Shown: positions 62,746 to 64,000 of the stretch, piece by piece
How the letters are laid out: every line of letters begins with the position of its first letter
Numbering within the stretch: position 1 is the first letter of the stretch
Translations under genes and position numbers: made by a program
From: Chitinophaga pinensis
GTDB lineage: Bacteria; Bacteroidota; Bacteroidia; Chitinophagales; Chitinophagaceae
DNA length: 64,000 bases
Direction of reading: 5' to 3'
Assembly: GCA_945862385.1 (NCBI GenBank)
Contig: CAMAXV010000001.1
Coordinates: 124,001 to 188,000 of the forward strand
The notes under the pieces: model-generated
What the model was told of the DNA's origin: nothing
Seen by the model: the letters and a program-made list of their open reading frames with translations, nothing else
The model's database searches: none

Positions 62746-62749
62746 GAAG

Positions 62750-62770
62750 TGGTGTGGGCCGGAATCGTTC
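62750..62770 (-). other. Possible tRNA 3'-end fragment (attachment-site-like)
   Basis: Read on the minus strand this stretch resembles the end of a tRNA: a T-loop-like ACGATTCC, then GGCCCACA and CCA. No full tRNA can be folded around it. Such fragments are left at the edges of integrated elements that use tRNA 3' ends as target. No integrase is present in the window, so this is weak. Confidence 0.22.
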
Positions 62771-62885
62771 CCAATCACTTAAATATTTAATAATCAATTA
62801 TTTGTGTATTTTAAAAAAACGAAATTCTCCTGATTATTTCAGAGCCAATAAGAATTTCAAGGTAAATGTGGGATTTTCTCCGAAA

Positions 62886-62964
62886 ATATGAGCCAATTAA
62901 AACTCTTATTCGGCTCAAATTTTTATTACATTTGAGCCGATTAAGCTCCCTAATCGGTTCAAAT
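62886..62964. promoter_or_regulatory. Duplicated 35-bp dyad upstream of the Fic gene
   Basis: Four copies of a 15-bp site near ATTTGAGCCGATTAA alternate in direction: 62886-62900 (+), 62906-62920 (-), 62930-62944 (+), 62950-62964 (-). Each +/- pair makes a dyad with exactly 5 bp between arms, and the pairs repeat at 44 bp. A degenerate fifth site lies at 62836-62852. The last site ends 1 bp before the Fic ATG (62966), so binding would block translation start or early transcription. Confidence 0.7.
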
Positions 62965-62965
62965 C

Positions 62966-64000
62966 ATGTACAACTGGCAATACAAGAACTGGCCCAATTT
63001 CAAATTTGACTTAACCAGACTGGAAGAACAGCTGATTGACATTAAATCAAGCGTAAGCCTGGTTACGGGAGCTGTATCGTCATTACCTGAACAGCTACAG
63101 TCAGATACACTGATCCAAATCATGGTTGCAGAAGCGTTAAAAACATCTGAAATTGAAGGAGAGCATTATAGCAGAATCGATGTGGTATCATCCATCAAAA
63201 AAAATCTGGGCTTAATAGTTGAAAAATCCCCTGCCAATAAAAATGTAATCGGACTCGGGGAAATGCTCATGGATGTCAGAAAATCATACAAAGAGCCTCT
63301 TACTGAGGAAAAACTATTGGAATGGCATAAACAATTAATGCAGACCAATAAGAAAATAAATGCAGGAATCTACAGAAAAAGCGATGAGCCAATGTTGATC
63401 ATTTCAGGATCTGCCTCAGATCCCACCATCCATTTTGAAGCCCCACCATCTTTCCGTGTTCCAGATGAAATGACAAATTTCATCAATTGGTTCAATCAGG
63501 ATAATTCAAATGAAAAAGATTGGAAATTAAATTGTCCGCCTGTAAAAGCTGCTATAGCCCATTTATACTTTGAATCAATACATCCATTTGAAGATGGAAA
63601 TGGCAGGATTGGGAGAGCAATTGCTGAAAAGGCTTTGTCGCAGGGTTTTGGAGGACCCATGCTTATTAGTTTATCCAAAACTATAGAGAAACACCGTAAA
63701 GAATATTACGCTAACCTTAAAGAAGCACAGCGTAAATTGGAAATCACCAAATGGATAGCCTGGTTTGTGAATATTATTCATATTTCGCATAAAGAAACAG
63801 AGAGGCTGGTAAAATTCATAATCATTAAAATGCGATTTTATGATATATATAAAAATCAATTGAATGATCGTCAAGCTAAAGTAATTGCCAGAATGCTTGA
63901 AGAGGGTCCAGATGATTTTGAAGGAGGCATAAATGCCAAAAAATACATAAGTATCACCGGTTGTTCTAAAGCAACAGCAACAAGAGATCTGCAGGATTTA
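62966..64000 (+). CDS. Fic-family AMP-transferase with N-terminal DUF4172 domain (3' end cut by window)
   Basis: 345 codons are visible, no stop before the edge. The N-terminus (WQYKNWPNFKFDLTRLE) matches DUF4172. An inhibitory helix TSEIEG (Thr60, Glu64) fits the class II (S/T)xxxE(G/N) motif that blocks ATP. The catalytic loop is HPFEDGNGRIGR with His206. A C-terminal winged-helix-like part (LNDRQAKVIARMLEEG ... CSKATATRDLQDL) suggests DNA binding. Fic proteins transfer AMP to a target hydroxyl; the inhibitory Glu keeps them off by default. The dyad array at its start codon suggests autoregulation. Confidence 0.9.
   Translation, partial: MYNWQYKNWPNFKFDLTRLEEQLIDIKSSVSLVTGAVSSLPEQLQSDTLIQIMVAEALKTSEIEGEHYSRIDVVSSIKKNLGLIVEKSPANKNVIGLGEMLMDVRKSYKEPLTEEKLLEWHKQLMQTNKKINAGIYRKSDEPMLIISGSASDPTIHFEAPPSFRVPDEMTNFINWFNQDNSNEKDWKLNCPPVKAAIAHLYFESIHPFEDGNGRIGRAIAEKALSQGFGGPMLISLSKTIEKHRKEYYANLKEAQRKLEITKWIAWFVNIIHISHKETERLVKFIIIKMRFYDIYKNQLNDRQAKVIARMLEEGPDDFEGGINAKKYISITGCSKATATRDLQDL

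Follow-up and report, generated by a model that had tools for sequence, protein, structure and literature searches.

A two-dyad array abutting a DUF4172–Fic gene of Chitinophaga pinensis as a candidate operator for the encoded Fic protein

The DNA analysed here, hereafter the window, is a 64,000-nucleotide stretch of the genome of Chitinophaga pinensis, towards the end of which lies a fic gene on the forward strand. The gene starts at 62966 and continues past the window end at 64000 (the full gene is at L001:1501–2613), and it encodes a 370-residue protein comprising a DUF4172 domain, a class II Fic domain and a C-terminal winged helix–turn–helix (wHTH). The first two of these score above their curated Pfam cut-offs (80.2 bits versus 25 for DUF4172, and 68.8 versus 24 for Fic). 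In the translation, one chain has both TSEIEG, the inhibitory motif, and HPFEDGNGR, the active motif, and the protein was assigned to class II by an N-terminal inhibitory motif of the form [ST]xxxE[GN] together with HPFx[DE]GNGR. A class I Fic toxin–antitoxin pair was rejected, because the inhibitory motif is present in the same chain rather than on a separate antitoxin. Residues 3–366 align to CbFic2 (PDB code: 8cil), winged helix included. An AlphaFold2 model was generated for L056, a 58%-identical relative, rather than for the window protein itself (42 sequences in the alignment; mean pLDDT 93.4); its C-terminus consists of three helices and a two-stranded wing, i.e. a wHTH, and its closest fold in the PDB is again that of CbFic2 (TM 0.88 at 3.0 Å), with the SoFic and CccR entries ranking lower at rmsd values of 8.8–11.9 Å. 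When mapped onto this model, residue 335 falls where the last helix begins, and residue 359 in the wing loop. The winged-helix-like C-terminus proposed in an earlier, sequence-only reading of this DNA is, therefore, borne out by both the alignment and the model.

Upstream of the gene are four sites that may be delineated in two ways. As 15-mers, they occupy 62886–62900 (+), 62906–62920 (−), 62930–62944 (+) and 62950–62964 (−), spaced by 5 bp and repeated at 44 bp; the final arm stops one base short of the ATG at 62966. As 11-mers, they constitute four half-sites close to TGAGCCGATTA, arranged as two convergent dyads with a 7-bp spacer and a 44-bp period before the fic start codon. In the first dyad, half-site 1 (TGAGCCAATTA; 62889–62899, +) faces half-site 2 (TGAGCCGAATA in the minus-strand reading; 62907–62917, −). 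A 15-bp linker follows (62918–62932; 15 or 16 bp in all 136 array-bearing loci described below), and, in the second dyad, half-site 3 (TGAGCCGATTA itself; 62933–62943, +) faces half-site 4 (TGAACCGATTA in the minus-strand reading; 62951–62961, −), which ends four bases from the ATG. Overlapping half-site 3, TACATTTG (62927–62934, +) fits TAnnTTTG, the consensus of the −7 promoter element of Bacteroidota. In a scan with free spacing and period, the window array scored 57, whereas 400 dinucleotide shuffles averaged 39.6 and did not exceed 48, and 101 control stretches lying 400–1400 bp upstream at related loci did not exceed 44. The four alternating sites, their pairing into two dyads and the 44-bp repeat abutting the Fic ATG, all described in the sequence-only reading, thus stand. 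A fifth copy, claimed to lie further upstream, was dropped as a part of the operator: the best extra match, AGAGCCAATAA at 62841–62851 (+), lies outside it, agrees at 8 of 11 positions and was equalled or bettered in 133 of 500 shuffles, i.e. it is at chance level. A degenerate dyad pattern, when run against the 3.07-Mb genome, found both window dyads and one other place, C5:77162, where the half-sites are off consensus.

Relatives were drawn from three sources: 149 related genomes, 36 of which contained a match at an E-value of 1e-40; 80 named loci, which are the best 80 of 579 and make the sample lean towards close relatives; and 66 fresh loci. The sequence-only reading had pointed to the upstream regions of DUF4172–Fic homologues as the place to seek the same spaced dyads, and they are indeed present there. 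Using a fixed-register scan (score of at least 43, with at least six of the eight leading T/G letters), the two-dyad array was detected before 136 of 166 non-redundant genes (below 97% protein identity, window counted in), a share that refers to this sample, with its lean towards close relatives; by the same test, none of 303 control stretches passed, their maximum score being 38. The period is 44 bp in 87 of these loci, 45 bp in 40 and 43 bp in nine, and both dyads have the 18-bp offset in 115. With free spacing, 94 of 108 upstream regions scored above every one of 101 controls, and the commonest layout was that of the window; in several of the other 14, one dyad is a base shorter, and these pass the fixed-register scan. 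At G867:C34:2781–2897, three strict dyads follow one another in 44-bp steps upstream of fic. By dialect, the 136 arrays divide into 89 of an ATA type (TGAnnnATARA) and 47 of a GAWTA type. Judged by their titles, the array-bearing records span at least six phyla, with Bacteroidota, Nitrospirota, Verrucomicrobia, Planctomycetota, Acidobacteria, Thermodesulfobacteriales, Kiritimatiellae and Proteobacteria all being named, although individual placements may be wrong because many of the records are MAGs. On this comparison of sequences, both the layout and its conservation in several phyla can be regarded as established.

The 30 loci that did not pass comprise 20 from a second group; L007 and L112, in which the spacing differs or the sites are weak; L088, for which there was no upstream sequence; and seven of the fresh loci (L163, L165, L182, L189, L198, L199 and L207). 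Some of these, such as L198 and L199, have self-similar sites in another dialect. The second group consists of 21 loci (L015–L035) with half-sites resembling TGCGGnGAWTA, including the variants TGCAACGATTA and TAAGGCGAATA. It retains the 18-bp convergent offset, which was seen in 35 of the 39 adjacent convergent pairs found, and its adjacent dyads are 33–34 or ~53 bp apart. Since distances of 33–34, 44–45 and 53 bp differ by approximately one helical turn, the dyad seems to be the fixed unit, and dyads may share one face of the helix across the different layouts.

The array has a characteristic position relative to the start codon, taken as the in-frame start nearest to half-site 4. In 123 of the 136 loci, the start codon (121 ATG and two GTG) shares with half-site 4 the terminal base of the latter; two bases are shared in one further locus, and in the other 12, the window (four bases) included, the codon lies 0–5 bases beyond the half-site. 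Additionally, in 27 of the 47 GAWTA-dialect loci, as in the window, which is of this dialect, a TAnnTTTG word runs into half-site 3 so that its end covers the first two bases there; at half-site 1, such a word has this placement in only one of the 47. Among the 89 ATA-dialect loci, a Shine–Dalgarno-like word was found in spacer 2 in 50 and in spacer 1 in 10, whereas a −35-like word was found in spacer 1 in 12 and in spacer 2 in one; neither word is enriched at those spacers among the GAWTA-dialect loci (one versus three for the former, and none versus one for the latter). Taken together, the positions of the start codon and the promoter words place the dyads over the likely promoter and the start codon, the former being assigned by its consensus.

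The dyads lie mostly at fic over the 25 genomes searched. In 12 genomes picked for a GAWTA-dialect fic (~53 Mb), all 17 strict dyads were within ~200 bp upstream of fic, and a reversed-pattern control gave no matches in the same genomes. In 12 ATA-dialect genomes, 11 of the 13 dyad places were at fic and two were away from it, with two genomes lacking any; here, the reversed control gave one match, in G499. Moreover, among ORFs of at least 70 residues in the 1.5-kb flanks of 88 loci, no family was common to more than five. A clean dyad in the Fic dialect, TGAGGCATAAA/TGAGGCATAGA, was observed away from fic at L212:2004–2032 (G622:C17:62503), upstream of ORFs that by eye resemble an HTH antitoxin and a PIN toxin, with a ParB-like ORF adjoining; it is possibly a second target or a relic.

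The identity of the reader is addressed by covariation between protein residues and operator bases. Plain mutual information (74 loci) was swamped by a two-clade split, with the wHTH, which accounts for 49 of the 364 columns, supplying 11 of the top 40 columns, or 13 of 40 after correction; it was replaced by within-clade and leave-one-out scans. In the latter, R359 and S360 were the top alignment columns at 0.987, the next column reaching 0.90. Among the discovery loci of the ATA dialect, 35 of 36 have either Arg359 with G or Lys359 with A at half-site position 10, the remaining one lacking the residue. This rule was fixed in writing ahead of the retrieval of the fresh loci, which were gathered in two rounds. 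From the 66 fresh loci, five were removed for being at least 95% identical to others and two for want of a long protein, leaving 59, of which 52 have an array and 43 are of the ATA dialect. For these 43, the rule was right in 32, wrong in three (one Arg with A, and two Lys with C) and met no majority base in eight, while none of the 26 with Lys had a majority G. Over all 89 ATA loci, 77 agree, three go against the rule (L149, which has Arg with A, and L169 and L183, which have Lys with C the commonest base), eight have no majority base and one lacks the residue. Counted per half-site, Arg occurs with G in 181 of 200 and Lys with G in one of 152. In a tree from which the wHTH was excluded, eight switches of the base and nine of the residue were counted, and all five independent supported pairs agree; the sign test gives p 0.06 because independent switches are few. 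Earlier and faster trees yielded three and four such pairs for this position, with agreement in nearly all or all of them.

A second correspondence, involving residue 335, is less clean. Lys335–Ala336 accompanies CCG at positions 5–7 in all 39 loci concerned, Ile335 accompanies TTA in five of five, and Arg335 accompanies GC in five GAWTA-dialect loci (L082, L083 and L175–L177), perhaps of one lineage. Where position 4 is T, residue 335 is non-basic in 19 of 19 loci, yet G is kept in 13 loci with a non-basic residue 335. Roughly half of the independent tree pairs for positions 4 and 6 show no difference at residue 335, and position 4 is predicted as well or better by other columns, also outside the wHTH (0.93 for I234 compared with 0.86 for K335). 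The tree tests of positions 4 and 6 against residue 335 are suggestive at most, and residue 335 tracks half-site positions 4–6 less cleanly than residue 359 tracks position 10. Overall, by comparison of the loci, the half-site dialect follows the winged helix of Fic itself, across several phyla.

From these observations, it is very probable that Fic has its cognate operator in these four sites, which it would bind to repress its own gene. One Fic homodimer would engage a convergent dyad through its pair of C-terminal winged helices, the half-site centres being ~20 bp, or two helical turns, apart, and a second dimer would occupy the next dyad. Within each half-site, the N-terminus of the recognition helix (residues 335 and 336) would read positions 3–7, and residue 359 of the wing would read position 10. 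Dyad 1 would lie just upstream of the putative −7 element, and dyad 2 would cover this element, the region of the transcription start and the start codon; with the dyads at or over the likely promoter and start codon, occupancy would shut off fic transcription, i.e. negative autoregulation. The recognition points of one dyad are ~20 bp (68 Å) apart, which is close to the 70.2 Å (~20 bp) between the DNA-binding helices in the dimer of CccR from Yersinia pseudotuberculosis (PDB code: 7XUX), a Fic–HTH protein that binds and represses its own promoter, a reporter being 3.3 times higher in its absence (PMC9755527). Given this similar spacing and the self-repression by CccR, we hold self-repression by two dimers to be the most likely mechanism. 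The sequence-only reading had suggested that Fic binds its own promoter and controls its own synthesis, perhaps depending on its modification state; with regard to such a possible dependence, CbFic2 suggests a link between DNA binding and activity (PMC10628234). Binding to the promoter is supported by comparison, through the dyads before homologues, the lack of a conserved neighbour of at least 70 residues, the placement at fic and the covariation with the wHTH; for the control of synthesis, repression, rather than activation, is what we infer from the overlap with the promoter and start codon and the precedent of CccR (PMC9755527).

The same dyads could instead act in RNA, as hairpins of a 5′ leader that control translation, the last of them hiding the start codon. 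The last dyad is capable of pairing (14-nucleotide arms, 93% complementary) and ends beside the ATG, and the start codon overlaps it in the 123 loci noted above. However, half-sites match one another as well across dyads (9.04 of 11) as within them (9.03 of 11), which fits sites for one protein, but need not arise with hairpins and would not be explained by pairing alone; moreover, the half-site bases track wHTH residues, and dyad 1 would lie upstream of the transcript if the −7 element is correct, so that such hairpins are highly improbable. We attach equally little weight to a different regulator, encoded elsewhere in the genome, as the reader of the sites. Position alone cannot name the reader of a site, and the two dyad places away from fic in the ATA-dialect genomes would suit such a protein, whereas the recurrence of one layout in several phyla without a shared flanking ORF family, and dialects that follow the wHTH of Fic, both speak against it.

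A less remote, though still unlikely, alternative is that Fic binds the operator in order to activate transcription, or only to sense DNA. The activity of CbFic2 is altered by DNA binding (PMC10628234), and, by analogy, the operator could be an effector of the enzyme rather than an off-switch for transcription; against this, the dyads cover the likely promoter and start codon, and CccR acts as a repressor (PMC9755527). Self-repression could also be combined with an effect on activity, such that the operator would serve as an antitoxin: a dyad-bound Fic dimer would be held in a harmless, deAMPylating state with its gene shut, and if this contact were lost, as might happen on degradation or takeover of the host DNA by a phage, AMPylating monomers would be freed and more synthesis allowed. 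We regard this as a speculative idea with a low probability of being correct. Were it true, a single DNA element would link an AMPylation defence to both gene dosage and DNA integrity, and the spread of this one-gene cassette would require just the gene and its operator.

Several observations relate to the mobility of the locus. A 19-bp direct repeat, GTGGTGTGGGCCGGAATCG, is present at 62749–62767 in the window and at L004:2161–2179, the two copies being 1411 bp apart and flanking the operator and fic; the downstream one forms the 3′ end of a gene for tRNA-Phe (L004 2161–2234, minus strand). The arrangement resembles a single-gene island located at the end of a tRNA gene, and no integrase was seen between the repeats. 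At L004:2226–2309, a 42-bp unit occurs twice, head to tail, from inside the 5′ end of the tRNA-Phe gene. A tRNA-Phe gene is also found in the flank of the Fic gene at L017; association with tRNA genes was rejected as a general trait, as six of 120 other loci have a tRNA in their flanks, which is about chance by a rough estimate. Relatives at an E-value of 1e-40 were found in 420 of 72,556 plasmid records, 169 of the 420 being predicted to be conjugative or mobilizable, and this carriage fits spread across phyla; no phage carriage was detected in 50,697 records at an E-value of 1e-20. An operator attached to the start codon would travel along with its gene, which offers a simple reason for single-gene moves between phyla.

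The same genome encodes a SoFic-like Fic, upstream of which is an inverted repeat with TTTCGACAT arms (L003, ~1425–1460). Inverted repeats were also seen upstream at several loci of its relatives (L213–L242), and a site of the CGAGGGYRAA type occurs at least twice in seven of 30 SoFic-like loci, but in none of 30 when counted in a control window. These repeats hint at self-regulation in a second Fic–HTH family; with just seven of 30 loci for the single site type counted, we make no family-wide claim.

With respect to the literature, the matches listed for Fic operators, autoregulation, DUF4172 and SoFic promoters, in open-licence papers at the level of titles and abstracts, contained no report of the present operator. 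They included work on the phd–doc toxin–antitoxin system (PMC4257102), and CccR was the sole self-regulating Fic–HTH protein recognised among them. In relation to the latter, self-repression by a Fic–HTH protein is already known (PMC9755527), with an operator of another geometry. CccR resembles the window protein in being a dimeric class II Fic with a C-terminal HTH, and inverted repeats are described near the −35 and −10 elements of its promoter (PMC9755527). However, the sequence similarity is low (phmmer E-value 5.1e-6, residues 55–313), CccR is a secreted effector and its operator, AGATAATCAT-N26-ATGATAATCT, is one inverted pair of a different half-site; this 10-N26-10 arrangement is not that of the window, which has two dyads of 11-mers with 7-bp spacers, repeated at 44 bp. 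Sofic, likewise a class II Fic with a C-terminal domain, is toxic, acts against phages and is paired with the antitoxin AS1 (PMC12249575). The PADLOC profile for SoFic matches the window protein with an E-value of 8.4e-51, and assignment to the SoFic equivalog NF046030 was rejected at 57 bits versus a curated cut-off of 550. Moreover, in Escherichia coli the AS1 gene is reported to lie downstream of Sofic (PMC12249575), whereas the window family has no conserved flanking family among ORFs of at least 70 residues.

The closest relationship is to CbFic2 (CBU_0822) from Coxiella burnetii (PDB code: 8CIL), which is the best match of the window protein in the PDB by sequence (E-value 2.4e-68) and has the same domain order, DUF4172–Fic–wHTH. 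CbFic2 binds DNA in vitro and is reported to dimerise on it and shift to deAMPylation, which suggests a tie between DNA binding and enzyme activity; the DNA used was random, and the specific binding sequence was named as a future question (PMC10628234). The available part of that paper describes no operator or autoregulation, in which respect CbFic2 differs from the window protein with its candidate operator. A likely DNA sequence for the family of CbFic2 can now be read off genomes, complete with dialects and a residue-to-base rule (Arg or Lys at 359 with G or A, respectively, and a looser one for residue 335), and CbFic2-like proteins may seek a sequence of the type represented by this candidate operator. 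Together, operator and rule make the target testable, both for specific binding and for whether a cognate operator, as opposed to random DNA, flips such a protein between AMPylation and deAMPylation.
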